Below are positions 13,926-59,084 of a stretch of DNA of 64,000 nucleotides, in pieces (positions within the stretch are counted from its first letter, which is position 1; each line of letters opens with the position of its first letter). The DNA lies in the NCBI GenBank assembly GCA_016744595.1, contig JADGEB010000009.1, positions 31,784-95,783 of the forward strand. The letters run 5' to 3'. The notes below the pieces were generated by a model. That model did no database searches. It was given only the letters and a program-made list of their open reading frames with translations, and was not told the origin of the DNA. The stretch comes from Desulfuromusa sp. GTDB lineage: Bacteria; Desulfobacterota; Desulfuromonadia; Desulfuromonadales; Geopsychrobacteraceae. A program made the position numbers and the translations under genes.

Positions 13926-14198
13926 ATGACAGAAAGAAGCTCATCGATGAAAGAGTCTCAAGGAAGTTCAATCAGAGAAGCTTGGTTACTTTGCCTCGTT
14001 CTGGGCTTGATCATGATCAATTTTCCGTTCATCCACATATTTAATACGGAACAATTTATTTTTGGTGTTCCCAAGCTTGTTCTCTATTTCTTTATCGGCT
14101 GGCCTTTATCTATTGTTGTTATCTGGTTTTTCGTCCGCTACATGGGAAATGGCTCGCAAAATACCTCCACAATTCTGGAGGACAAAAGCGACCCATGA
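13926..14198 (+). CDS. Small two-TM protein upstream of a transporter-type receptor (CbrX-like position)
   Basis: 90 aa with two predicted TM segments (AWLLCLVLGLIMINFPFIHI and a second from about VPKLVLYFFIGWPLSIVVIW). An internal ATG at 13947 could be the true start. Its stop overlaps the next gene's ATG by 4 nt (ATGA), implying translational coupling. Position and topology recall CbrX, the small protein translated just before the SLC5-type sensor kinase CbrA in Pseudomonas, and other small symporter-associated subunits. Homology cannot be shown from the sequence alone. It probably assembles with or stabilises the symporter domain of the next protein. Confidence 0.6.
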   Translation: MTERSSSMKESQGSSIREAWLLCLVLGLIMINFPFIHIFNTEQFIFGVPKLVLYFFIGWPLSIVVIWFFVRYMGNGSQNTSTILEDKSDP

Positions 14199-17100
14199 TT
14201 TCAGCTAAAAATGTCCTTTTTATGTCGATGATCTCCGCCAAAACTGTCTTACTTGTTTCACTTGGCTATTTTGCGCTGTTATTTCTGGTTGCTCTATATG
14301 CTGAAAAATGCCGTAAAACTGGCACCTGTCTCCTGAAAAATTCACATGTCTACTCATTATCTCTAGCAGTCTATTGTACAAGTTGGACATTTTACGGCAG
14401 TGTTGGGAAAGCAGCCACCAGCGGTCTGGAATTTCTCCCCATCTATCTAGGCCCAACTCTGATTGCCTTTGCCTGGTGGTTTTTACTTCGTAAAATGGTA
14501 TTGATCAGTAAGCAACAAAACATTACCAGTATTGCTGACTTTCTTTCCAGTCGTTATGATCGCTCTACCGTTCTTGGTGCCATCGTCACTCTATTTGCTG
14601 TCTTTGGGATTACACCCTATATAGCGCTACAATTGAAAGCTATTGCCCAGACATTGGGTATTTTATCGATGCCATTAACATCTCCCAGCACTGGCTTATA
14701 CGATTATACATCCAAGCTTCCAGGGAGCATTGATATTGCGTTTTTCGTTGCCCTGTTGCTGGCATTATTTGGCATGTTGTTTGGAGCCAGAAACCTTGAT
14801 GCCTCAGAGAAACATGAGGGGCTGGTTGTCGCAGTTGCTTTTGAATCTCTGGTGAAATTAGTCGCTTTTCTTGCTGTCGGCATTTTTGTTACATATGGCT
14901 TATTTGATGGTTTTATCGATATCTTCCAACAATTTTATGAACAGTTCCCAGAACGACGCGATTTACTTCTCCTTGGCACCGAACAAACCCCCTACACCAA
15001 GTGGTTTACGCTGATCATCCTGTCAATGATGGCAGTCATGTTTCTGCCCCGGCAATTTCACATTATGATCACAGAAAATACCGACGAGAAGCATATAAAA
15101 TCGGCAATGTGGAAATTCCCAGCCTACCTTTTTCTGATCAATCTGTTTGTTTTGCCAATTGCTCTTGGTGGTCTAATAATCAATGGGGGCGATACCACCC
15201 AAGCAGATTACTTTGTCCTGACTCTGCCACTCTCTTCAGGACATCCATGGTTAGCGCTGTTGGTCTTCATTGGTGGTCTGTCTGCCTCTGCCGGAATGGT
15301 CATGGTTTCATCAGTGACTATAGCAACTATGGTTCTGAACCATCTGGTCATGCCGATTATCCTGAAAATGAACATTCAAGCACAAAACATATCGGGCTTA
15401 TTGATCAACATCAAAAGGCTCGGCATTCTTGGGGTCATCTTCATCGGCTATTTCTATTTTAAGCTTATCGGCAGCTCTTATGCCCTGGTCAACATGGGTC
15501 TGATATCCTTTGCTGCTGTCACTCAATTTGCACCCGCCGTAATTGGTGGTCTTTTCTGGAAAAGAGCCAACCGGAAAGCTGCGATATCAGGAATTAGCCT
15601 AGGCTTTATTCTATGGTTTTATACTCTCCTCATTCCATCTTTTGTGCGCTCTGGATGGCTCAGTTCAGACATTCTCCAAAATGGTTTATATGGCATCAAC
15701 CTATTAAAACCTTTGGAATTATTTGGCCTGCGTGGATTTGATATTTATACCCACTCCCTATTCTGGAGTATGCTTTTCAATCTAGCTGCTTACTTGACGT
15801 TATCGTTCTTTGCCAAACAAACAGAAGCAGAAGAAATTCAAGCCGAAAAATTTGTTGATATTTTTGTGGAACAGGCTCCACAACAAAGCAAACTAAAACG
15901 CATCAGCAAAGCACCAACCGTCATGGAATTTGTTGAATTAATGTCCAAATTCATTGGCGAAAAACCTGCCCAAGCCGCAATAACTGAATATTTAAGTAAT
16001 CAGGAGATTGATGCCAGAGGAAATCTTTCAGATCACGAGATTCCAAATCTGAAAAGTTTCACTGAACGCACCCTTGCCGGTCATGTCGGGGCAGCTCCTG
16101 CACGCATTATTCTGGAAAACTACCTAGAAGCTCGCGGCAGTGAAATGGAGGATGTCTTCGATATTTTTGGCACTGTCACTATTAGTCATGCCTCCAGTCG
16201 AGAGCAATTGAGTGTATTGTACGATGCTGCGCAAATTGTTTCCAGCGAAGAGGATTTTCAGAAAACCCTAGATAACATTCTGGAACTACTTGCTCAACAA
16301 TTTAAATTTGACCTCTGTGTAATCCGCTTCCTGGAGCCGGAATCAATGACACTCATGGTCAAGAGTTTGGTTGGTTCTTCATCGGAACATTTTGGTCAAT
16401 TTGAGCGAAATCTCAATATGGATACCTACATTGGTCAGGCATTTCTGTCTAATTCTACTACAGTTGTCAATGATGCCGATTTCATCGAAAAAACCCTGTC
16501 GGCAAAGCATGTAAAGCGCGATGGAATCACCTGTCTGGCTCACACTCCAATAGTATTTGAAGGAGAACCGGTGGGAATCCTCTCGGCTTTTTCAAAAACC
16601 ACAAAAGGAATTTTTACTAATGAGTTTATTGCCCTGTTCGAAAACCTCGCTGGCCAGGTTGGAATAGCGTGGCGCAACGATCAACAGCTACAGAAGCTTC
16701 TACGGGGGCGAGAGCAAGAACGGGAAATGCAAATTGCCAGAGACATTCAGAAAACCCTTTTACCATCAAACCTCCCCAATCTGGATAATATTGCTGTTGC
16801 CGGCCTTTGTGTCTCTGCTCATCAGGTTGGAGGGGACTATTACGACTTTATTGAACGCGACAATTCATCTTATGACCTAATCATAGCTGATGTCTCAGGA
16901 CACAGCATCGGTTCAGCACTGATCATGGCTGAAACACGCACCTTTATCCATGCGCGCATGGAAAGTATTAAACAACCAGCTGAAATGTTAAGTGCGCTCA
17001 ATGGTTACTTCCTTAAAGATCTGGATCGCTCCGATCTGTTTGTCACCATGTTTTACCTACAGTATAACCCTGTCAATCATCGACTTATTTATGGAAACGC

Positions 17101-17446
17101 CGGTCACAACACTCCACTTCTGTGGAAAAATCGAGAACGGAAGATCGTCACCCTTGATACGGAAGGAATGATTTTCGGTATCAAAAGTGATATTACTTTT
17201 GAACAAAAAGCAACCGACCTTGAGCCGGGAGATATCCTCCTTTTATACACAGATGGCATTATTGAGGCTGAGAACAAAGATAAAGTTTTTTTCGGAATTG
17301 AGAGATTAGGAAAATTACTTGAGGAATCTGATGATTTAACTCCTCAAGAACTAATAGACCGGATTATGACACAAGGACGAATCTTCACCGGAATGCGCCA
17401 TTTCAATGATGATATCACTCTGGTTGTTATGAAGGTTCTAAAATGA
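14195..17446 (+). CDS. SLC5/SSS symporter-like receptor fused to linker, GAF and SpoIIE/PP2C phosphatase domains
   Basis: 1083 aa. Residues about 1-530 are a sodium:solute symporter-like membrane domain of the CbrA/PutP type (SLAVYCTSWTFYGSVGKAA, then FLPIYLGPTLIAFAWWFLL). Residues about 565-650 are a helical linker (VMEFVELMSKFIGEKPAQAA) resembling the STAC domain that follows SLC5 in sensor kinases. Residues about 665-820 are GAF-like. Residues about 838-1083 are a SpoIIE/RsbU PP2C phosphatase with all metal ligands: VGGDYYDF, ADVSGHSIGSA, GNAGHN, LLLYTDGIIEA, NDDITLVV. The helix before it (EREMQIARDIQKTLLPSNL) is standard. Followed by STAS and RsbW-like genes, so its likely substrate is the phosphorylated STAS protein. 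An 11-codon near-duplicate (MISAKNVL/MISAKTVL) marks the N-terminus. Confidence 0.85.
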   Translation: MISAKNVLFMSMISAKTVLLVSLGYFALLFLVALYAEKCRKTGTCLLKNSHVYSLSLAVYCTSWTFYGSVGKAATSGLEFLPIYLGPTLIAFAWWFLLRKMVLISKQQNITSIADFLSSRYDRSTVLGAIVTLFAVFGITPYIALQLKAIAQTLGILSMPLTSPSTGLYDYTSKLPGSIDIAFFVALLLALFGMLFGARNLDASEKHEGLVVAVAFESLVKLVAFLAVGIFVTYGLFDGFIDIFQQFYEQFPERRDLLLLGTEQTPYTKWFTLIILSMMAVMFLPRQFHIMITENTDEKHIKSAMWKFPAYLFLINLFVLPIALGGLIINGGDTTQADYFVLTLPLSSGHPWLALLVFIGGLSASAGMVMVSSVTIATMVLNHLVMPIILKMNIQAQNISGLLINIKRLGILGVIFIGYFYFKLIGSSYALVNMGLISFAAVTQFAPAVIGGLFWKRANRKAAISGISLGFILWFYTLLIPSFVRSGWLSSDILQNGLYGINLLKPLELFGLRGFDIYTHSLFWSMLFNLAAYLTLSFFAKQTEAEEIQAEKFVDIFVEQAPQQSKLKRISKAPTVMEFVELMSKFIGEKPAQAAITEYLSNQEIDARGNLSDHEIPNLKSFTERTLAGHVGAAPARIILENYLEARGSEMEDVFDIFGTVTISHASSREQLSVLYDAAQIVSSEEDFQKTLDNILELLAQQFKFDLCVIRFLEPESMTLMVKSLVGSSSEHFGQFERNLNMDTYIGQAFLSNSTTVVNDADFIEKTLSAKHVKRDGITCLAHTPIVFEGEPVGILSAFSKTTKGIFTNEFIALFENLAGQVGIAWRNDQQLQKLLRGREQEREMQIARDIQKTLLPSNLPNLDNIAVAGLCVSAHQVGGDYYDFIERDNSSYDLIIADVSGHSIGSALIMAETRTFIHARMESIKQPAEMLSALNGYFLKDLDRSDLFVTMFYLQYNPVNHRLIYGNAGHNTPLLWKNRERKIVTLDTEGMIFGIKSDITFEQKATDLEPGDILLLYTDGIIEAENKDKVFFGIERLGKLLEESDDLTPQELIDRIMTQGRIFTGMRHFNDDITLVVMKVLK

Positions 17447-17543
17447 TACACAAATTACCAATTTTACAGTCAGCTGTGCAAAAATAGGGTACAATTAATA
17501 CCACATAGTAAATATCACTAAACTCGATTAAGGGAGAACTTGC

Positions 17544-17879
17544 ATGCAGTTAAATATGACCGAACAGGGCGATATTGTAATGATCAGCGTCGATGAAGAA
17601 CGAATGGATGCCCATAACAGCGGAGACCTTAAAGAACAGATGCTGCAACTGTTTGACGAAGGTAAATGTAGTCTGGTGATTGATTTGAGTGCGGTTCGAT
17701 TCATCGATTCATCAGGTCTTGGTGCTTTGGTTTCTGGTTTTAAAAACGCCAGTGCCCGAGAAGGTAGTCTCAAACTGTGCTGCTTGCAGCCTCAGGTTCG
17801 TTCAATGTTTGAACTGACACGTTTACATCGAGTTTTTGAAATTTTTACAAATCAAGAAGAAGCTTTGAGCAGCTTCTAG
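17544..17879 (+). CDS. Anti-sigma factor antagonist (STAS domain, SpoIIAA/RsbV type)
   Basis: 111 aa single STAS domain. The phosphorylation-site loop VRFIDSSGLGALVSG (Ser56/Ser57) matches SpoIIAA/RsbV. The start is supported by GGGAGA upstream. In partner switching the unphosphorylated form binds the RsbW-like kinase and releases its target; the kinase phosphorylates it and a PP2C phosphatase (previous gene) resets it. All three components are consecutive on the plus strand. The gap after the receptor gene is 97 nt, with no terminator seen. Confidence 0.9.
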   Translation: MQLNMTEQGDIVMISVDEERMDAHNSGDLKEQMLQLFDEGKCSLVIDLSAVRFIDSSGLGALVSGFKNASAREGSLKLCCLQPQVRSMFELTRLHRVFEIFTNQEEALSSF

Positions 17880-17908
17880 TCAGCCAATTCTTCCGTTGAA
17901 AGAGATAC

Positions 17909-18331
17909 ATGTCAAAACAGGTCAAGATTGATATCACAGTTCCCAACCAGACCAAATACCTCGGGATGATTGGACGGATTGGAGAGAGTATGGCTTACTC
18001 CCTGAAGAGCTATCAAGGGAATCGCAGGGAGCTAGCCTATCACCTTAATCTGGTTCTAACTGAAGCGCTAGCCAACGCGATAAGCCATGCTAACGACTTC
18101 GATCCGGACAAAGATGTCAGAGTTGTGATCTCCGCCTCTGATCAAGAGCTGATCATCAAGGTTTTTGATCAGGGGCTAGGTTTTGATATTGAAACACTGG
18201 CAAAGTTTAAAGCACGAGCTAGCGATGAAGGTGGCCGTGGTATCCAACTCATTTTTAAGCTCATGGATCAAGTCAGATATATGCGGGAGGGAGACGGTAA
18301 CGTCTTGGAGATGGTCAAGTATCTCCATTAA
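17909..18331 (+). CDS. RsbW-like anti-sigma factor / serine kinase (HATPase_c)
   Basis: 140 aa GHKL ATPase domain. The N-box (LTEALANAISHAND), G1 box (VFDQGLGFDI) and G2 box (DEGGRGIQLI) are present, so it should bind ATP and phosphorylate the STAS partner. The usual target of RsbW proteins is a sigma factor, but none is encoded in the window, so the output may be a remote sigma factor or another partner. It ends 5 bp from the convergent response regulator gene with no terminator between. Confidence 0.88.
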   Translation: MSKQVKIDITVPNQTKYLGMIGRIGESMAYSLKSYQGNRRELAYHLNLVLTEALANAISHANDFDPDKDVRVVISASDQELIIKVFDQGLGFDIETLAKFKARASDEGGRGIQLIFKLMDQVRYMREGDGNVLEMVKYLH

Positions 18332-18336
18332 CGATC

Positions 18337-19689
18337 TTAGCTATCTTCAATCCCATAGTCTTTAAGCTTGCGCCTGAGAGTTAAACGGTTAATTCCCAAA
18401 ATGTCCGCCGTACGAGTCTTGTTGTGATTTGTCCGATTGTAAATCAACAAAATATGTTTTTTCTCCACCTCAGAAAGTGGGATCATTTCCACGACGGTCG
18501 ATTTCCCCTCAGAACAACACCCCACCAAAGCCAAGTCATCAGTTTTTATTTTACCGCCATCATGGAGTAGAGTCGCTCGCTCAATTACATTTTTCAATTC
18601 CCTGACGTTACCAGGCCAGCGATGTTTCTTCAAACATGCCAAAGCTTCGGCTGTAAACTCACAACTTTTGTCGGGACTATGTAACAGAAACTCGGTAAGA
18701 AACAGATTGGCTAAAACGGGGATATCTTCAGGATGTTCACGCAACGGCGGAACACGGATGGGAAAGACATTTAAGCGGTAGAAAAGATCCTCACGGAACA
18801 GACCAGCTTTGATTCGATCAAACAAGTCCCTGTTAGTTGCCGTAACAATACGGACATCAACACGGATTGGCTGCTGTCCTCCAATCCTTATCACGGTCAT
18901 ATCTTCCAGAACGCGAAGTAACTTAGCCTGCAACCCCGGTTCCATTTCAGCAATCTCATCCAAAAACAAGGTGCCGTGATCAGCAAGCTCAAATAAGCCC
19001 TTTTGGCGGTTGCTAGCATCAGTATAGGCACCTTTCTCATGACCAAAAAGTTCATTTTCCAACAAAGAGGCCGGCAAAGCCGCGCAGTTTATTTTGAGCA
19101 GTGGCCCTTCACGCCGAGAACTCTGGTAGTGGATAGCCTCGGCTACTAATTCTTTTCCGACACCACTTTCTCCAAGAATTAAAGTTGTCGTTGTATCTGC
19201 CTTAGCCACTAACATAATTTCTTGGCGTATTTTTCTCAGAGCGTTGGATTCTCCAATCAAACGAGTCCAGGATTTCTTACTACGCCGTTTCTCCCGCTGC
19301 CTGAAAGAGTTCACTTCCCCGCGAAGCTGTTGCGTATCCATAGCCCTTTCAACAATCAACTGCAGCTCATCTAGGTCAAATGGTTTATTGATGTAATCGT
19401 AAGCTCCAAGCTTTAACGCTTTAACCGCCGTTTGAACCTCTGGGAATGCTGTAGCAACAATTACTAATAATGATTGCAGGTCGGAGATCTCTACAAGTAG
19501 GTCAAGGCCCGACCCATCGGGTAATTTCATATCCAGGATCATCAAATTAAAATCGTGCTGAATCAATTCTTTACGTGCGCAAGACAAGTTTTCGGCACTC
19601 ACTGCTCCGTAGCCTTCCTGACGGAAAAAATCAACTAAGCTTTCACGTAAAATTTCTTCATCTTCAACTATCAAAATTTGCCCGCGCAT
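18337..19689 (-). CDS. Sigma54-dependent response regulator (NtrC family)
   Basis: 450 aa. Receiver domain 1-120 with phosphoacceptor Asp53 (LMILDMKLPDG) and Lys102 (NKPF). Central AAA+ domain with Walker A GESGVGKE (173-180), Walker B GTLFLDEIAEM and a sigma54-contact loop reading GAYTDA (220-225) instead of GAFTGA. C-terminal Fis-type HTH (NKTRTADILGINRLTLRRKL). The start is supported by GGAGG. It overlaps the upstream kinase gene by 19 nt, so the two are one operon. A sigma54 promoter driving the divergent cytochrome operon (21811-21826) is the obvious target; that link is inferred. Confidence 0.93.
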   Translation of the reverse strand: MRGQILIVEDEEILRESLVDFFRQEGYGAVSAENLSCARKELIQHDFNLMILDMKLPDGSGLDLLVEISDLQSLLVIVATAFPEVQTAVKALKLGAYDYINKPFDLDELQLIVERAMDTQQLRGEVNSFRQREKRRSKKSWTRLIGESNALRKIRQEIMLVAKADTTTTLILGESGVGKELVAEAIHYQSSRREGPLLKINCAALPASLLENELFGHEKGAYTDASNRQKGLFELADHGTLFLDEIAEMEPGLQAKLLRVLEDMTVIRIGGQQPIRVDVRIVTATNRDLFDRIKAGLFREDLFYRLNVFPIRVPPLREHPEDIPVLANLFLTEFLLHSPDKSCEFTAEALACLKKHRWPGNVRELKNVIERATLLHDGGKIKTDDLALVGCCSEGKSTVVEMIPLSEVEKKHILLIYNRTNHNKTRTADILGINRLTLRRKLKDYGIEDS

Positions 19690-21641
19690 CCGCTACCTCC
19701 TTGAGGAAAATGAATGATCGCCTCGACTCCACCGTGCTTTCTATTCTTAAGGCTAATCTCACCTCTCAATTCTTCAACCAACTGCTTTACAATGGCCAAC
19801 CCCAAACCTGTACCATCCGATTTACTCGTAACCAGAGGCTCAAACAATTGGTCAATAATATCTTCAGGCAGGCCACAACCATTATCGCAAACCTCAATTT
19901 TAATCCGATCATTTAAATAGCTGGCATATACATCGACCTGCCCATTGACATCACATGCCTGCAAAGCGTTTAAAATCAGGTTCATGAATATTTGGTGAAG
20001 GTGCTGAGCTTTAGAACAGACCAATAAAGGCTCAGCGGGCAGATATAATTGTAGCTGGATATTCATCCTATCTGCCTCTTCACAAAGGATGAAGGCCAAG
20101 TCACGCAAAACTTGATTAACATCGACTCCTTCCCGTTCAAAATTCCGTTGTGGCGACAGATTTCCCCTAAGGTGAGAAATAAAATCTCCTAGACGATCGA
20201 CAAGTTTCAACATTTTGCTTATATCAACCTGCAGTTTCTGATCTAGTTCTTCGCGTCGTTGCAGCATCTGCAGCTTAACCCGCAACCCTGCTAGAGGATT
20301 GCCAATTTCGTGAGCAACAGTTGCTGACAGCATTCCCAAAGAAGACAGTCTGTTCGCCTGCAAAAGCTGCTTTTCAAGTTTATCCATCAGTATTTTTGCA
20401 GTATCAGCTTCATTTTGAGTTCGCTTAAGATCTGTAACTTTTCGCTCAACTTCCTCTTTTAGAAGCGTATTCCAATCAACCAATTCCCGGTGGGCCTCTT
20501 TTTGTGCTTGAGCCATATCGTTAAGGGCAAGAGCTAATTGTCCAAATTCATCGTGGCTACGGATATCTGAGCGCACGTCAAAATTACCGCCAGCAACCAG
20601 ATTGGCAAACCTTGACAATCGGTGAATCGGAAGGCTAAAGCTTCTGGCAGCAACAAATGCTAATCCTGTCACCAGAAGCGCAATGAAAATAAAAGAGAAG
20701 ATGAAAGTCTGCTTTAACTGATAAATTTGAGAATAGAGATGTTTTTGCGGATAAGTTATTGTTAAGTACCACAAGCGATCAGAGCCTGCACTCACGGGAG
20801 TTATTGCCATAATATCTGTGCCGACAGTCGAAACCTTCACCCCATCATCAGGCCGAGGAAGCGATGAAAAGACAGAGTCAAAATCATTAAGATCTGTTGT
20901 TTCAGCACAGGTAAAATGTGAACGACCATGTTTGTTCTCCATCTTAACGAGCTGACGTCCCTGATTCAGCAATAAAACCCTTGTTTCATCCACAGAAACC
21001 AAATGTTCCAAGGCTGATAAAAACTTTTCACCAAAAACATTAACAATAACCAGACCGACAACGGTCTCTGACTTATCGACAATTGGAGCCGCAACTCGGA
21101 CAACCAAATTGTTTGGTACTTCAATCTGACCAAATTCTATGTTGAGATCCAAATGAGACACATATGTTTCGTCGGCAGCACACTGAAAAGCCTCTTGAAC
21201 ATAATAACGATCTCCCTTGTACTGCAATTCAGACTCAGGCACCAAGGCTGGCAGACCATCAATATTATTTATACGAAGTTGCTCATAGCCATCAACAGCA
21301 ATAAAGCGCAACTGGTAATAATCTCTCTCAGCCATAATGGCGGCAAGAAATTCATTCTGAACGAGAGCCCACTGCTCAACTTCCATCCCATCCTGAAATC
21401 GGCGTTGCAAAAAACGGGCAAGCGAACGGACATCTCTTTTCACTCCATCGAGATAATCTTCAATTGCACTTGCTGCCGTTACAGCTTCAACCTGTAAGCT
21501 CTGAGCAACCTGCGCCTGTAAGACTTTTTCGATTTTACTCAAAAATATATTTCCAAAAAATAATATTGGGACAAGTGCCAATCCTAAGAAAGCAACCAAC
21601 ATTTTTTTTCTGATTGAAAAAGAAATTTGTTGAGTCCACAT
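19671..21641 (-). CDS. Membrane sensor histidine kinase (periplasmic Cache-like sensor, HAMP)
   Basis: 656 aa. TM1 (MLVAFLGLALVPILFFGNIF), a periplasmic domain of about 270 residues resembling dCache (DRYYVQEAFQ, VRVAAPIVDKSETVVGLVIV), TM2 (FIFSFIFIALLVTGLAFVAA), HAMP (LPIHRLSRFANLVAGGNFDV), a coiled-coil linker, then HisKA with the phosphorylated His in TVAHEIGNPLAGLRVKLQML and HATPase_c (NLILNALQAC, DNGCGLPED, GTGLGLAIVKQLVEEL). It senses an unknown extracytoplasmic ligand and should phosphorylate the regulator encoded immediately downstream. Transcribed divergently from the cytochrome operon. Confidence 0.92.
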   Translation of the reverse strand: MWTQQISFSIRKKMLVAFLGLALVPILFFGNIFLSKIEKVLQAQVAQSLQVEAVTAASAIEDYLDGVKRDVRSLARFLQRRFQDGMEVEQWALVQNEFLAAIMAERDYYQLRFIAVDGYEQLRINNIDGLPALVPESELQYKGDRYYVQEAFQCAADETYVSHLDLNIEFGQIEVPNNLVVRVAAPIVDKSETVVGLVIVNVFGEKFLSALEHLVSVDETRVLLLNQGRQLVKMENKHGRSHFTCAETTDLNDFDSVFSSLPRPDDGVKVSTVGTDIMAITPVSAGSDRLWYLTITYPQKHLYSQIYQLKQTFIFSFIFIALLVTGLAFVAARSFSLPIHRLSRFANLVAGGNFDVRSDIRSHDEFGQLALALNDMAQAQKEAHRELVDWNTLLKEEVERKVTDLKRTQNEADTAKILMDKLEKQLLQANRLSSLGMLSATVAHEIGNPLAGLRVKLQMLQRREELDQKLQVDISKMLKLVDRLGDFISHLRGNLSPQRNFEREGVDVNQVLRDLAFILCEEADRMNIQLQLYLPAEPLLVCSKAQHLHQIFMNLILNALQACDVNGQVDVYASYLNDRIKIEVCDNGCGLPEDIIDQLFEPLVTSKSDGTGLGLAIVKQLVEELRGEISLKNRKHGGVEAIIHFPQGGSGCAGKF

Positions 21642-24951: not shown

Positions 24952-27315
24952 GTGCAAAAAAACATGTTGATGTTCCTACTGGCCAGTGTGGTCATCTTCA
25001 GCTTTGGTTCCATGGCATATGCGGGTGGAGGATGTACGACCACCGATTGCCATGCAGGGCTAGAAGAGATCGTCCCGACAGATCTGCCAATGTCTCAACA
25101 GCTCAAAATGAACGGTCAGATGCATGGTGACCCGGATGGCTGTGTTATGTGTCATGGTGGCAATCCAACAGCAACTAAAAAAGAAGAAGCACATAAGGGC
25201 GTTCCGGCCACATTAAGAATGGCACCAGGTCCAAAGGACTATTATCCCGATCCAGGTTCAATCTGGATTTCAGATAATACCTGTGGTATCTGTCATGTCG
25301 GATATACCTACCGAGCTAAAACCTCTCTGATGAATACTGAAGCAGGAAAAATTTCAGGCAATATGCATACTTGGGGCTTTGAGGAGACCGCAAACTTTAA
25401 GAACCCATGGGGAAATTATGCGATCACAGATCAAGATGGCCAAACCCCAATGATCGGAACTAAAGCTTATAAGAGCTACATGAAAGATCAAATCAGCATG
25501 TATCCTAATCAGTATCCCAAAAAACTGGATCTGATGCCGAACCCTAGCGTTGAAGAAGTTAAAAAAGATCCAAAGAAAGCTGCATTTGCTTATCAACGTC
25601 AAGACTGTAACCGCTGTCACATCGGAGTTCGTGGTCGTGAAAAGCGCGGCGACTACCGTGGAATGGGTTGCTCAGCCTGTCATATTCTCTATAGTAATGA
25701 TGGATACTACGAAGGAAAAGACAAGAGTATCAAACCCGACGAAAAGGGACATATGCTCAAGCATCAAATCATCGGGAATCGAAAAACTGGAGGAATCCCT
25801 GTTGAAACCTGTAGCTCTTGTCATAACCGTGGAAAACGTATCGGTGTCTCATTCCAGGGTCTGATGGAATTCCCATATGGGTCTCCTTTCAATGAAACCG
25901 GTGGAAAACAACCGAAACTACACACTAAAAAATACATGTTCGTTTCTGATGATCTACATCATCAGCAAAAAAGTCGTAAAGGAAATCCAGAGGGCGGCCT
26001 CCTTTGTCAAGATTGCCATACCAGTATTGATATGCACGGTGATGGCAACATTCACGGCACAACAATGGGTCAAGTAGAGATCGAATGTACTGATTGTCAC
26101 GGCACCCCCAAAAAATATCCATGGGAACTCCCTATCGGTTATGGCGACGAGTTTGGTAAAAAGGCTCAAACTGAAGCTCGTGGTACCGCCGAAAAGTTGT
26201 TGATTGTGGGTCAACAGTTTGGTTACCCCTACGCTGTTGAAGATGGTTTCCTTCTGTCAGCACGCGGAAATCCACTGGGTAACGTTGTGCGCCGCGGAAA
26301 CAAAGTCATTGTTCACTCTGCCACCGGCAATGATTTTGAAGTACCAGATCTAAAGGGTCTCGCTCTTGGCAACAAATGGAAAGATCCATCAGCTGAAGTT
26401 GCTATGAGTGCCGTCAGTGGTCACCTGGAAAAATTGGAGTGCTACACATGCCACGCCTCCTGGGCACCACAATGTTATGGCTGCCATGTCAAGGTTGACT
26501 ACAGTAACGACAAAAATGGCAAACAAAAAGGTGGAACAGACTGGATTGCATCCGGTAACAGCCACGATTCACAAGGACAGACAGCTGAATCAAAGCTTGG
26601 CGCTAAAGGCATTTTCACCTCAGGAAAACCAATGGAAAGCCGCTCTTACTTACGCTGGGAAGACCCCGTTCTTGGAATCGGCGGTGAAGGCAGAGTGACG
26701 CCATTAATGCCTGGATGTCAGGTTGTTTACACTGTTATTGATGATACAGGTGCTGTTATCGCCAACAATATGATTGCTGATGCGCCAGACGAAGCAAAAT
26801 ATGTTGGTCAGGAGCATGTTCCACTAGCAATCGACATGTCTCCAGTCCAGCCACACACTGCTCAGCGTCAGGCTCGCACCTGTGAAAGCTGCCATGGTAA
26901 TGCCAAGGTTGCAGGTTTAGGCATTGGCAATGGGACATTTAGCAACCAACAAAACAAAGATGTTGTCTTTGATTTGATGAATGCGAAGACCGGTGAAATA
27001 ATTCCTGAAAAATATACGGTTCAAATTCAGGCAATACCAAAACTGGACTTTGACTGGTCACAAATTGTAACACGCGATGGAACCCAACTTGCGACCGTCG
27101 GAAGTCACTGGCCACTCAGCCGCGCGTTTAACAAGGAAGAGATTGACACCTTCATGCGGACTGGAACCTGCATGGGTTGTCACCAGAACATGAGTAAGAT
27201 GGAGCTTTGGGAAAAGGTCAGCAAAGAAGGCAAGCTTGACTACAAGAAACATCAAGACCTAATGAGCGAAATGCTCAAAAATATGGCTAAAAATGCTCCT
27301 ATAACAAAGAAATAA
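24952..27315 (+). CDS. Periplasmic multihaem cytochrome c with 12 candidate haem sites
   Basis: 787 aa with GTG start and a strong GGGAGG ribosome-binding site. Signal peptide MQKNMLMFLLASVVIFSFGS, cleavage after MAYA. Eleven CXXCH motifs (64, 111, 219, 240, 287, 352, 379, 497, 508, 644, 740) plus one CX4CH at 28-34 (CTTTDCH) give 12 possible c-type haems. Residues about 384-496 and 513-643 are haem-free insertions. Last gene of the operon; likely the electron acceptor or terminal reductase/relay of the Cbc-like complex. No lipobox, so periplasmic or surface. The family within multihaem cytochromes is not recognised. Confidence 0.88.
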   Translation: MQKNMLMFLLASVVIFSFGSMAYAGGGCTTTDCHAGLEEIVPTDLPMSQQLKMNGQMHGDPDGCVMCHGGNPTATKKEEAHKGVPATLRMAPGPKDYYPDPGSIWISDNTCGICHVGYTYRAKTSLMNTEAGKISGNMHTWGFEETANFKNPWGNYAITDQDGQTPMIGTKAYKSYMKDQISMYPNQYPKKLDLMPNPSVEEVKKDPKKAAFAYQRQDCNRCHIGVRGREKRGDYRGMGCSACHILYSNDGYYEGKDKSIKPDEKGHMLKHQIIGNRKTGGIPVETCSSCHNRGKRIGVSFQGLMEFPYGSPFNETGGKQPKLHTKKYMFVSDDLHHQQKSRKGNPEGGLLCQDCHTSIDMHGDGNIHGTTMGQVEIECTDCHGTPKKYPWELPIGYGDEFGKKAQTEARGTAEKLLIVGQQFGYPYAVEDGFLLSARGNPLGNVVRRGNKVIVHSATGNDFEVPDLKGLALGNKWKDPSAEVAMSAVSGHLEKLECYTCHASWAPQCYGCHVKVDYSNDKNGKQKGGTDWIASGNSHDSQGQTAESKLGAKGIFTSGKPMESRSYLRWEDPVLGIGGEGRVTPLMPGCQVVYTVIDDTGAVIANNMIADAPDEAKYVGQEHVPLAIDMSPVQPHTAQRQARTCESCHGNAKVAGLGIGNGTFSNQQNKDVVFDLMNAKTGEIIPEKYTVQIQAIPKLDFDWSQIVTRDGTQLATVGSHWPLSRAFNKEEIDTFMRTGTCMGCHQNMSKMELWEKVSKEGKLDYKKHQDLMSEMLKNMAKNAPITKK

Positions 27316-30305: not shown

Positions 30306-30501
30306 ACGAAACAGTTCTTTGAATTTCTGGGGTGCACGGGGTGATTTTGATCCCTTGACCAACGTTTTTTTGACCTGTCGTTATGTGAAAAGGTGGTGTG
30401 CAAGCCTGCCCATGAGCAGGACGCCTAAAGCTTTTTCCGTAGACAACTTTATTGTTCAGGTCATCCGCACAGAATCATACCGGCATCCTGGAGACCATTC
30501 C
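30306..30501 (+). ncRNA. ssrS: 6S RNA
   Basis: About 195 nt on the plus strand with the conserved 6S elements. The 5' side TTTCTGGGGTGC pairs with the 3' side GGCATCCTGGAGACCATTCC to close the molecule. ATCCCTTGACC corresponds to the E. coli CCCCUGAGCC segment. GGTGGTGTGCAAGCCTGC, then GCAGGACGCCTAAAGC match the E. coli GGUUGGUGAGCAUGCUCGG...CCGAGAAGCCUUAAAAC arm. 6S RNA mimics an open promoter and sequesters sigma70 RNA polymerase in stationary phase. It has its own promoter and a strong terminator directly after it. It fills the rlu-ihfB gap, and a long spurious frame (30226-30975) runs across it. Confidence 0.85.
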
Positions 30502-55608: not shown

Positions 55609-56964
55609 CTACTGTCTCCCCTCATATAGGACCTTCCAATCATCTTGTTCCTTCACCATATACAGGCGTTTATGCAAATTTCCATTGAAATTATTTGATC
55701 GGTAATGTTGGATAAAATTAGCTACAACCATTGGCTGGTTATTATTAGTCTCAGGATAGGTTAAAACCGAGATTTCAGAAAGATCAATTTTTTGGAATGT
55801 CTTTCCAGAAAAAATCCGTTTTTTATAAATTCCCCAACCTTCTTTATCATATTTTTTTGACCAGAAATCCTGCGAATACATGTCAAGATAGGCGGTCACA
55901 TTTGCCTGTTCCCAATTCTGACGCCAAGTCTCCAGGGCGGCCTGAACTTCTATGTTTTGATCAAGCCACTCCCGACTAGACACCCAATTAACCGACTCGC
56001 TGATAATAATTGGGGTTCGTCCTACTTCAACATATTGACCGATCAAATCAAATTCATGGTTAGTCAAAACGACACAGCCTTCACTGTCGAGTGGTGGACG
56101 ACTATAAAGGGACTTATCTGTTCCATGCAGCCAGATTCCACTGCCAGTTTTCTGTAAACGACGGTCATATTCATTCGGATAATTAACTGGGAAGGCACCG
56201 CTCCCATAGAGAGGTGGCAACTTAGCATCCGGCAGAAAGCTGGTTACAAAATAAACTCCATTTGGAGTTTTTAAATCGCCCTCACTAAACTTATCCCCAA
56301 CCCTCTTGCCTAAGACAATGTAAAAATCATCAATGAGCTGTGGAGGCAAAGCTGGCCCTGAATTACGAAAGACATAAAGTCTATTTTTACTTTTATCGAC
56401 AACCAACGCATACTCTGTATTGCGACTAAGTGCTAACAAGGCACGAGGAACATTGACGTTATCAACCAGAGATAGATACCCCTGCAACCGAGCTCTTGCC
56501 TCACTCTGTAACCGTTCAACACTCCGGTTATGGGCAGGAGTGACTCCATCAGACAACGCATTGGAACCCAGAGCGTCAACCTGGTTAAATCTGGCTAGCA
56601 ACAAATCGCCTAAAATCAAATGTGCCAGCTGAAACTTGGGTGCCCGTTGCGTCAATGTCTGCAGTTCTGTAATAGCATCAACCAACCCACCGACCTGAAA
56701 CAACAACAACCCTCTTAGTAAGCTTGCTTCGAAATCATCAGGGTTATGCTGCAAACGGCTATTAAGATGATCAAGTAAAGTTTGAACCTGTGGATCGATC
56801 TGAGTCTTCTCTATTGTTTCAGAACTGCTTGTAAGAAATGGTAGAACAGGTTGGGGCTTATTGGTTTCAACTTGCTGCTGAGGCCAAAGTGCCCCCACCT
56901 TTGCTCCAGTCAAGCCGAACAGGGCAATAATCACAATAGAAATAATGATTCGTTTAAATTTCAA
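55609..56964 (-). CDS. L,D-transpeptidase (YafK/ErfK type) with TPR and C-terminal NTF2-like domain
   Basis: 451 aa. The start is a TTG at 56964 preceded by AGGGG and overlapping the upstream stop by 4 nt; the next in-frame start (57003) is also TTG without a good site. N-terminal TM (IIISIVIIALFGLTGA), TPR-like region (about 55-165), L,D-transpeptidase domain (about 180-325) with catalytic HGT...SEGCVVL (His280, Cys297), then an NTF2-like domain (WRQNWEQANVTAYLDMYSQD). The terminal domain resembles that in Cds6-type transpeptidases. It should cross-link peptidoglycan or attach proteins to it. Translationally coupled to the pseudokinase gene. Confidence 0.85.
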   Translation of the reverse strand: MKFKRIIISIVIIALFGLTGAKVGALWPQQQVETNKPQPVLPFLTSSSETIEKTQIDPQVQTLLDHLNSRLQHNPDDFEASLLRGLLLFQVGGLVDAITELQTLTQRAPKFQLAHLILGDLLLARFNQVDALGSNALSDGVTPAHNRSVERLQSEARARLQGYLSLVDNVNVPRALLALSRNTEYALVVDKSKNRLYVFRNSGPALPPQLIDDFYIVLGKRVGDKFSEGDLKTPNGVYFVTSFLPDAKLPPLYGSGAFPVNYPNEYDRRLQKTGSGIWLHGTDKSLYSRPPLDSEGCVVLTNHEFDLIGQYVEVGRTPIIISESVNWVSSREWLDQNIEVQAALETWRQNWEQANVTAYLDMYSQDFWSKKYDKEGWGIYKKRIFSGKTFQKIDLSEISVLTYPETNNNQPMVVANFIQHYRSNNFNGNLHKRLYMVKEQDDWKVLYEGRQ

Positions 56965-59084
56965 CGGATAACCCCTAAAGACCGTTCTCGAAGAATTTTC
57001 CAACTATTTCCAGTCAACTGTAAATCAAATATCTTCTGGGTACGATCAGCCAGGACATCGCTCTTATAACTCTGAATAACTTCAACTCGCTGCCGACCAT
57101 TTTCTTGTGGTAATAATTTAAAATCATTCAGGCTAACCATGATTTCTTTAGGGTTAGTCAAACGAGAATGACGCTGAGCCTCCCAGGCTGCACGAGTTCT
57201 TCCTCCCGGAGGGATAAACTGATCAGCATAGAAAGTCAAGTAGGCATCAACATCCTGATCTGACCAAGCGAGCGCCCAGCGTCTGAGAAATGTCTCAGTC
57301 GTTTCCTGTTCAAACAATTCAGTGCCATCATTGACAGAATTTATTTCAGTCAATGGCTCCATTTTTGCTTCAACAACTGGTTGCTCTAATTCTTCTTTTT
57401 CAACCTGAACACTCTCCTCTGAATCCACACCTTCCGATTGATCATACTGATCATCAACAATTAACTGGGCGCCAGTAGATGCAACCTCAGCAACTGCAAT
57501 CAGTGACTCTGTCTCAGGCAATGGTGCTTGGGTTGATACCTTCTCGGAGCTTTGTTCTCGTAGAGTTACACTATTTTCAGCAGCCGCCCCTAAGTTAACC
57601 ACACCATGACTGGAGAAAACGGGTAAAGATATAAATGCTTGAGTCTTATCTAATTGTAAAGCACGACCGTAGGAACCTCTTGCCATTTCGGCATAGACCA
57701 GTCCAAGGTTACGATAAACAGTGGCATAATTTTCATTTGTTGCTAAGGCTTGTTCGAGAAAATCTCGTGCTTGTTCGTAACTTCCTTGAGCGGCATAAAA
57801 TGCAGCTAGATTATTGTAAGACCGTGGATCTTCTCGATGACCAGCAATAATCAGTTTAAATTCAGCTTCAGCCCCATTAAAATCGTCCTTTTGCCACAAT
57901 TGTAGCCCACGGTCCAGATCAACAGTCAAAACGCTAGCTGTTTCAGCCCTCTGATTAACAATCTCAGGTAATTCAAGAGGAGAGAGTTTGTTTAATACAA
58001 AGTAAAGGCCAGAACCAATAACAACTCCGAGCATCAGAATCAGTGCAAATCGCCAAAATCCTATCTTTTTATCTTGGATAGTTTGATCAAATTCATCGAT
58101 TATTTCGCTCTCTTCACCCGAAGGGATATCTACAGGTTCAGATCCCAGAAAATCGACAGCATGCTCTTTTAGTCGTGCTTCAATTCTTGCAGCAATTTCA
58201 GAACCATCCATCGCCTCATCAAGCAGAGAGGTTTTTTCTTCTGAACCAGCTTTTTCAGATTCTTGGTCAGCTACCGAGCTCAGAAGATGAATCTGATTAA
58301 TATCCTGATGAGCAATCAATTGTGTCAGCAGGCCGATTAATTCATCAACCATACAACGTTCTTCGACGGCTGTCTTTATCATCAAGTCCTGCAACGATTG
58401 AAGAAGGCTCAACTCTATGGGAAGAGATGGAAAATTTCCTTGTAAATGCTGCTTGGCAACATCAAAAGCATCCTCACCACAAAAGGGTGGCTGTCCTATC
58501 AAAAGGTGATAGAATACGCATCCCAAGCTGTAGATGTCGGAAGCAATTCCAGGGGTTTCACCACGCACCTGTTCTGGGCTGGTGTAGAGAGGATCAATCC
58601 CAGAGTGATAATCAAGTCTGATCAATTGACCCAAAGAAAAATCTGTAATATAGGGGGATCCATCCTCAAGATAAATAGTTTCAGGTGAAAGATTCCCATG
58701 CCAGATTCCAGCGCTGTGAGGAGTTCTCAAACATTCAGCAACTTTTTTAATCAGCTCAACAGACTGTCGTACAGATAAACCTTCATCGAAAATTTGCGCT
58801 AAAGGGATACCCTGAAAGAATGGATAGAGGCAAGCAAGCTGACCATCTATTTCTCCAGCTTTGAGTGGAGACCCAACACAGGGGAAGCTCTGACTTGACA
58901 ACCAATCAGCATGATCCAAAAAAGATTGTCGCTGTTTATGCCCAAGCAAAGGGTCTGGAAGAAGAAGAAAAAGTTTTGCGCTTGTAGAATCGGGACAGTC
59001 GACAAGATAACTCTGAAAAACACCATTTTCTGATAACGGTTTAACAACCTTACAACCAAATACCGCCTGACCACTTTCCAGCAT
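56961..59084 (-). CDS. Predicted pseudokinase (Ser/Thr kinase fold) with TM, TPR and NTF2-like domains
   Basis: 707 aa. Residues 1-270 follow the Hanks-kinase fold (ITDFSLGQ for DFG; SPEQVRGETPGIASDIYSLG for APE/subdomain IX; GQPPFCGEDAF), but the catalytic loop reads HGNLSPETI (129-137) instead of HRDLKPEN, so the catalytic Asp is Asn131 and Lys is Ser133. The glycine loop is degenerate. TM at about 345-363 (FALILMLGVVIGSGLYFVLN), periplasmic TPR units (SYNNLAAFYAAQGSYEQARD), then an NTF2-like domain (RRWALAWSDQDVDAYLTFYA) similar to that of the partner transpeptidase. Probably regulates the enzyme or binds cell-wall or nucleotide signals. Confidence 0.82.
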   Translation of the reverse strand: MLESGQAVFGCKVVKPLSENGVFQSYLVDCPDSTSAKLFLLLPDPLLGHKQRQSFLDHADWLSSQSFPCVGSPLKAGEIDGQLACLYPFFQGIPLAQIFDEGLSVRQSVELIKKVAECLRTPHSAGIWHGNLSPETIYLEDGSPYITDFSLGQLIRLDYHSGIDPLYTSPEQVRGETPGIASDIYSLGCVFYHLLIGQPPFCGEDAFDVAKQHLQGNFPSLPIELSLLQSLQDLMIKTAVEERCMVDELIGLLTQLIAHQDINQIHLLSSVADQESEKAGSEEKTSLLDEAMDGSEIAARIEARLKEHAVDFLGSEPVDIPSGEESEIIDEFDQTIQDKKIGFWRFALILMLGVVIGSGLYFVLNKLSPLELPEIVNQRAETASVLTVDLDRGLQLWQKDDFNGAEAEFKLIIAGHREDPRSYNNLAAFYAAQGSYEQARDFLEQALATNENYATVYRNLGLVYAEMARGSYGRALQLDKTQAFISLPVFSSHGVVNLGAAAENSVTLREQSSEKVSTQAPLPETESLIAVAEVASTGAQLIVDDQYDQSEGVDSEESVQVEKEELEQPVVEAKMEPLTEINSVNDGTELFEQETTETFLRRWALAWSDQDVDAYLTFYADQFIPPGGRTRAAWEAQRHSRLTNPKEIMVSLNDFKLLPQENGRQRVEVIQSYKSDVLADRTQKIFDLQLTGNSWKILRERSLGVIR

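Follow-up and report, generated by a model that had tools for sequence, protein, structure and literature searches.

Receptors that join a transporter-type SLC5 domain to a following STAC domain have been studied experimentally only as histidine kinases, in the open literature searched. CbrA of Pseudomonas has the order SLC5-STAC-PAS-histidine kinase; its partner CbrX is a peptide of about 58 amino acids, encoded by a gene overlapping cbrA; it was observed on the SLC5 domain in the form of a helical hairpin, and it is dispensable for cell growth on histidine (PMC13022988, a preprint). The SLC5-STAC kinases CrbS/MxtR and RpuS serve the use of acetate and pyruvate. The PPM phosphatases of the RsbU/RsbP/SiaA type have a PP2C domain with conserved aspartates, a preceding helical linker, and adjacent genes for a STAS protein and a GHKL kinase. 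Here we describe a four-gene operon that combines features of both, at positions 13926 to 18331 of a 64,000-nucleotide stretch of Desulfuromusa sp. DNA (assembly GCA_016744595.1, contig JADGEB010000009.1, positions 31,784 to 95,783, forward strand; the window). It encodes an SLC5-STAC-GAF-PP2C receptor. We estimate a probability of about 0.7 that this protein is a nutrient receptor that dephosphorylates the neighbouring STAS protein, thereby pulling an RsbW-like predicted kinase off its target.

The locus resembles CbrA/CbrX in the SLC5-STAC front, in the lysine at the Na2 site and in the overlapping upstream gene for a two-helix membrane protein. It differs from CbrA in having a PP2C output and not a kinase, a GAF domain where CbrA has PAS, and a changed binding pocket (see below). 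The likeness to CbrX described here is one of two-helix form and gene position. The kinases taken to be CrbS/MxtR and RpuS are closer in the pocket, but the kinase and receiver domains are absent here and a phosphatase, a STAS protein and RsbW are found instead. Compared with RsbU, RsbP and SiaA, the input is SLC5-STAC-GAF, and a search of 60 genomes gave no SigB-type sigma factor. The Rsb system of Chlamydia also combines RsbU with RsbV and RsbW, and its RsbU responds to a metabolite, but through a periplasmic sensor domain and not SLC5-STAC (PMC11619594). STAC domains combined with kinases and with GGDEF are mentioned in PMC5715377. The same domain classes as in our receptor occur in actinobacterial proteins with SSS, GAF, PP2C_SIG and HATPase_c, reported in a 2021 review (PMC7918813); this is the only related architecture met in the open literature, where no paper describing the present operon was found (most subscription papers lay outside the search). 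A Streptomyces protein, L146, fits this actinobacterial type; it is of separate origin, carries its RsbW-type domain in the same chain and has a STAC domain that is barely detected (16 bits).

The operon and its parts are as follows (aa, amino acids).

13926-14198, + strand: small CbrX-like membrane protein with two predicted helices, 90 aa (family profile, alignment, model)
14195-17446, + strand: SLC5-STAC-GAF-PP2C receptor, 1083 aa (Pfam, CbrA chain match, profile of relatives)
14228-15829, + strand: SLC5 transporter-type domain, residues ~12-545 (CbrA match, profile, fold)
14855-14857, + strand: Lys221, the equivalent of the CbrA Na2-site K196 (alignment)
15902-16174, + strand: STAC domain, residues ~570-660 (CbrA match, profile, alignment)
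16250-16672, + strand: GAF domain, residues 686-826 (Pfam GAF_2, structure 2qyb, model)
16619-16759, + strand: long helix, residues 809-855, between GAF and PP2C (predicted model)
16865-17437, + strand: PP2C/SpoIIE phosphatase domain, residues 891-1081 (Pfam, fold, alignment)
17544-17879, + strand: STAS protein (RsbV/SpoIIAA-like), 111 aa, candidate phosphosites S56/S57 (Pfam, alignment)
17909-18331, + strand: predicted RsbW-like GHKL serine kinase, 140 aa (Pfam, nearest structures, alignment)

The start of the receptor gene overlaps the stop of the gene before it by ATGA. Many relatives begin at the second Met-Ile-Ser, residue 12. There are 13 promoter-like sites against a chance mean of 10.0; this is not above chance and no promoter is claimed. 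A repeat search gave nothing notable.

A first-pass annotation, made from the sequence, had read the second gene as a symporter domain fused through a STAC-like linker and a GAF domain to a PP2C phosphatase, and this was borne out. Pfam recognizes GAF_2 (residues 686-826, E 4.6e-13) and SpoIIE/PP2C (residues 891-1081, E 3.6e-48), the latter in the place of a C-terminal HisKA + HATPase kinase, which is absent. With the whole receptor protein as query, Pfam gave no SSF match at E 0.1; in a genome-wide search SSF scored 24.7 bits, above its cut-off, and TIGR03648 gave E 5e-6, far below the cut-off of that model. The SLC5-STAC part was recognized through the solved chain of CbrA, 10ed_A, matched by residues 14-647 with E 2.6e-73; a profile built from 14 relatives brings this to 1.2e-96. 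In the AlphaFold model (mean pLDDT 73, pTM 0.50, 14 alignment rows) the predicted membrane part resembles SGLT, NIS and SMCT1, the phosphatase part RssB, SiaA and SpoIIE, and the GAF domain the Geobacter sulfurreducens GAF structure 2qyb. Because of the CbrA chain match and the likeness of the model to SGLT, NIS and SMCT1, we regard the predicted SLC5 identity of the membrane part, placed by the annotation at residues 1-530, as firm. The metal ligands that it reported for PP2C are also in place: D881, D884, D899, D1020, D1072 and D1073 are invariant in all 14 aligned receptors, the assignment of metal-binding roles being our assumption from PP2C structures. In the databases many relatives carry just the name 'SpoIIE family protein phosphatase', and others go by 'Na+/proline symporter/serine phosphatase RsbU'. 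In one single-contig genome (G055, locus L060, 7807-11019), a single in-frame TAG near the start of GAF interrupts the receptor, and the other genes of the operon are open.

The two downstream genes were likewise correctly named at first pass, with Pfam matches to STAS (E 1.8e-23) and, for the RsbW-like gene, to HATPase_c_2 (E 4.8e-21). Residues S56 and S57 of STAS are invariant in 20 of 20 sequences, and E52, N56, D87, G89, G91, G109, R110 and G111 of RsbW in 31 of 31; the roles of the motif residues in PP2C, STAS and RsbW are presumed from solved families. Among solved sequences, Bacillus RsbW and SpoIIAB lie nearest to the RsbW-like protein; both bind sigma factors. The host genome has a single strong RsbW-type open reading frame (ORF; 75 bits, the next best 31 bits) and one stand-alone STAS protein by PF01740, two further matches lying inside ORFs of 532 and 540 aa.

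The four-gene operon is conserved across the class. Copies identical over a 600-residue stretch being collapsed, there are 80 distinct fused receptors. Of these, 72 have 1300 bp or more of downstream sequence, and in 68 of them STAS and RsbW come next on the same strand; the architecture is therefore more than a chance fusion. The class was surveyed in 200 genomes at least 90% complete, with the receptor accepted at a profile E of 1e-100, a level that SLC5-STAC kinases can also reach, and RsbW at E 1e-10. The receptor profile matches in 175 of these genomes, 163 with an E printed as 0 and 12 more weakly; kinase relatives or split genes could be among the 12. Five of the 25 genomes without a match were identified by elimination. 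RsbW is found in 188 genomes. Both are present in 171, the receptor only in four, RsbW only in 17 and neither in eight (Fisher p 7e-6, not corrected for relatedness).

Downstream and convergent to the operon (18337-21641, - strand) lie genes for a response regulator of the AtoC/NtrC type and for a histidine kinase that has HAMP and a Cache-like sensor. This pair was rejected as a member of the system; it adjoins the operon only in some loci of the same genus. Elsewhere in the window there is a 6S RNA at 30321-30498 (+ strand; Rfam RF00013, 62.8 bits), and two large ORFs have no Pfam match at E 1e-15: 24952-27315 (+ strand, 787 aa) and 56961-59084 (- strand, 707 aa). Extra receptor copies were noted in loci L068 (7085-10294 and 14996-18187) and L075 (6192-9374), two of the three with altered pockets; L068 is near an aldehyde ferredoxin oxidoreductase-like gene, and L075 has genes for a TRAP permease and for a GlcD-like oxidase close by.

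For the small upstream protein Pfam gives nothing at E 0.1. Its predicted model has helices at residues 13-39 and 50-73, and all 42 aligned relatives, partners of kinases among them, share G27, P34, F39, P49 and W59. A family profile trained on 50 of these proteins gave 133 matches among 16,393 ORFs in 141 sequences, all 133 directly 5' of an SLC5 ORF; the other 83 matches, those beyond the training proteins, include second records of genomes already represented. Eight of the 141 SLC5 ORFs have no such match, and three of these are kinase relatives (L084-L086). The protein is present upstream of 76 of the 79 receptors with at least 300 bp of upstream sequence, and by the same profile this kind of partner also precedes SLC5-STAC histidine kinases. 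Profile searches of the file of PDB chains matched no CbrX chain, the presence of one in that file not being established.

The origin of the phosphatase output was examined with a tree of 76 SLC5 domains, which included 31 of the 89 PP2C rows and left out fragments and three symporter controls. All 31 sampled receptors form one clade (support 95/80). The rows nearest to it are SLC5-STAC kinases, some with GAF, and those branches are weak. The Streptomyces protein L146 (5983-9591, Streptomyces sp. F63), in whose single chain a profile finds SLC5 and Pfam finds GAF, SpoIIE and a C-terminal HATPase_c_2, sits among proteobacterial kinases, and the AU test rejects a tree forcing it to group with the remaining PP2C receptors (p 3.7e-6). 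On this phylogeny, the exchange of kinase for phosphatase thus occurred at least twice. This fits a proposal that helical linkers make sensors swappable among phosphatases, kinases and cyclases (PMC12143880).

The switch might work as follows. A small ligand, perhaps a short carboxylate such as acetate, together with protons would load the SLC5 pocket, and the STAC bundle beneath it would shift. The GAF pair and the helical linker, for which helix 809-855 is the likely candidate by analogy with RsbU, would pair two PP2C domains in an active dimer, in the way proposed for RsbU. PP2C would then strip the phosphate from S56 or S57 of STAS, and free STAS would bind RsbW, which would let go of its target. 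In favour of this reading we counted the CbrA match, the invariant motifs, Lys221, the 68 of 72 operons, the single strong RsbW and the one stand-alone STAS, the Streptomyces chain and the co-occurrence of receptor and RsbW.

Several observations weigh against it. The four receptors without adjacent STAS and RsbW genes are the two copies in L068 and those in L075 and L099; three of the four have at least two changed pocket positions, and the genomes of L068 and L075 (G046 and G044) also hold a receptor copy inside the usual operon. RsbW is retained without the receptor in 15 genomes of two lineages, nine of one family and six of one genus (in one of the six the RsbW match is weak). The family, f4, lacks a receptor match and has RsbW in all nine sampled genomes. 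In the two that were examined, both single-contig, STAS-RsbW stands beside counterparts of the window's upstream neighbours (a TPR protein, a LolB-like protein, a solute-binding protein and a permease, with 30-80% identity to those of the window), and neither the receptor nor the small partner is there. These syntenic pairs are:

L214, 8846-9623: receptor-less STAS-RsbW pair, family f4
L215, 8268-9070: receptor-less STAS-RsbW pair, family f4

Since these genomes keep STAS-RsbW without the receptor, the module has uses beyond it, and the switch does not depend on the receptor. The host genome also encodes a second strong PP2C protein, a dCache-HAMP-SpoIIE protein of 708 aa (L087, 7414-9540, contig C19), which may feed into the same STAS as another input; many genomes contain PP2C proteins of similar length, about 700 aa. 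In the kinases, the SLC5 domain of CrbS can substitute for that of CbrA in growth on histidine, and deletion of STAC in P. fluorescens gave no clear phenotype (PMC5715377).

The chimera bears on a different account, in which SLC5 and STAC are a membrane anchor and dimer scaffold and a cytoplasmic signal is read by GAF, which controls PP2C. The chimera suggests that SLC5 can be swapped with the signal unchanged, and sensing may then lie in GAF or at some other site. The authors of PMC5715377 conclude that transport is unnecessary for signalling, cytoplasmic sensing is favoured for the SLC5-STAC receptor family in PMC9100948, and GAF here sits directly before PP2C. The pattern of conservation speaks against this account: mean pairwise identity is 68% for STAC, 61% for SLC5, 55% for PP2C and 54% for GAF. 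The higher conservation of SLC5 and STAC seems unlike that of a mere anchor and was counted in favour of the nutrient receptor. The pocket-region residues W64, T65, Y84 and K221, which an anchor would not need, are invariant in all 14 rows. We consider that a pure scaffold is possible but rather unlikely.

The nutrient-receptor reading leaves several candidates for the target of RsbW. No sigma factor of the SigB/F/G families was found in 60 genomes, the host included (TIGR02980 at E 1e-40; a B. subtilis control scored over the cut-off), and a SigB-type output is rejected. The first-pass statement that no sigma factor is encoded near the operon holds; of its description of a 'general-stress-type' switch, the STAS/RsbW module stands, but the label rests on analogy and finds no SigB/F/G sigma factor behind it. 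The sigma factors seen in the host genome (94% complete) are RpoD, an RpoS-like protein below the RpoS cut-off, FliA and two extracytoplasmic function (ECF) factors. An RpoS-like protein is present in 183 of the 200 genomes (E 1e-95). An RpoS ortholog is absent in four of the 12 genomes without RsbW against 13 of the 188 with it (Fisher p 0.012), an association that is confounded by incomplete assemblies and by the E cut-off and is too weak a basis for naming RpoS as the target. We put RpoS forward, tentatively, as the first candidate; the alternatives are RpoD, FliA, an ECF sigma factor or a non-sigma protein. In Chlamydia, RsbW beside the metabolite-responsive RsbU is reported to bind the housekeeping sigma factor (PMC11619594). 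The sigma factors of Geobacter are listed in PMC2700814, where one frameshifted anti-anti-sigma gene is mentioned and the operon is not described in the part of the text available.

In systems of the SiaABCD or HsbA type the targets are non-sigma proteins (a diguanylate cyclase, for instance, or an anti-sigma protein), and a functional switch of that kind would agree with the absence of SigB/F/G factors, with the RpoS ortholog kept in eight of the 12 genomes without RsbW and with the SiaA PP2C domain among the near solved folds. It agrees less well with the nearest solved sequences of RsbW, which are sigma binders, and with the weak association of RsbW and RpoS absence; a non-sigma target appears to us less likely than not.

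As to the ligand, K196 of CbrA occupies the Na2 site and has been linked to proton coupling (PMC13022988). The alignment places a lysine there in 89 of 89 receptor rows (same-genome duplicates and, as their own group, 10 fragments being kept) and leucine in all three ordinary SSF symporters compared from the host genome. Lys221 thus stands, by alignment, where sodium/solute symporters have their Na2 sodium site, and argues against sodium coupling. Among eight positions lining the histidine of CbrA, the window receptor has five as in CbrA, S53, A56 and F248 being replaced by T, T and S. It has seven of the eight in common with a hybrid kinase of a P. aeruginosa plasmid, which from its gene order we take to be CrbS/MxtR, and all eight with an Azospirillum hybrid kinase that adjoins a response-regulator gene, gltA being three genes away. 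Six are common with the receptor on pNGR234b of S. fredii, taken to be RpuS (rpuS is located on this plasmid; PMC9100948). The SLC5 domain is 42-43% identical to those of the P. aeruginosa plasmid and Azospirillum kinases against 33.5% to CbrA, and the full pocket set of the window occurs in 64 of the 89 rows. By these comparisons the predicted pocket resembles that of hybrid (CrbS-type) kinases more than that of CbrA. As CrbS/MxtR is required for growth on acetate (PMC8402216), our guess is a small carboxylate, for example acetate.

Against this guess, the pocket set is common to most SLC5-STAC kinases fetched and is not specific, transport has been demonstrated only for CbrA (PMC7918813), and SLC5 may not set specificity, given the CbrA/CrbS chimeras. 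A CoA-transferase is absent from nine of the 25 receptor-less genomes and from seven of the 175 with a receptor (p 1.1e-5); by lineage these are about three shared losses, and in the receptor-less family eight of the nine genomes keep the gene. It was scored with TIGR03458 at E 1e-60, the cut-off of the model itself being reached in no genome. SLC5-STAC kinase loci (L125-L167 and L222, 5278-12178, on plasmid 1 of Paracoccus denitrificans) often contain genes for DUF294/CBS proteins, exonucleases and single-domain response regulators. In three of 38 such loci there is also a gene of the acetyl-CoA synthetase type, which Pfam confirmed in one case.

Recognition of histidine, as by CbrA, would be in keeping with the five shared lining positions and the Na2-site lysine, but the three replacements and the closer agreement with the hybrid kinases make it improbable. 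A routine fusion of modules with no particular function, or an artefact of annotation, is suggested by how common SLC5-STAC and PP2C modules each are, but is hardly credible for receptors that form one clade, match the profile in 175 of 200 genomes and keep their gene order.

If the nutrient-receptor reading is true, Geobacter and its relatives gain a global switch that is described in no paper found by our search. A fuller picture is possible, though we would not yet bet on it: in Geobacter, Desulfuromonas and the class as a whole, a proton-coupled transceptor of the acetate type would gauge the main electron donor and set the availability of a global sigma factor, SLC5-STAC having been rewired at least twice from two-component signalling to partner switching. 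A class-wide relative with phosphatase output indicates that the same SLC5-STAC front end can drive other signalling logic, and it provides a clean comparison for the question of what controls SLC5-STAC receptors: transport, binding or a signal in the cytoplasm.

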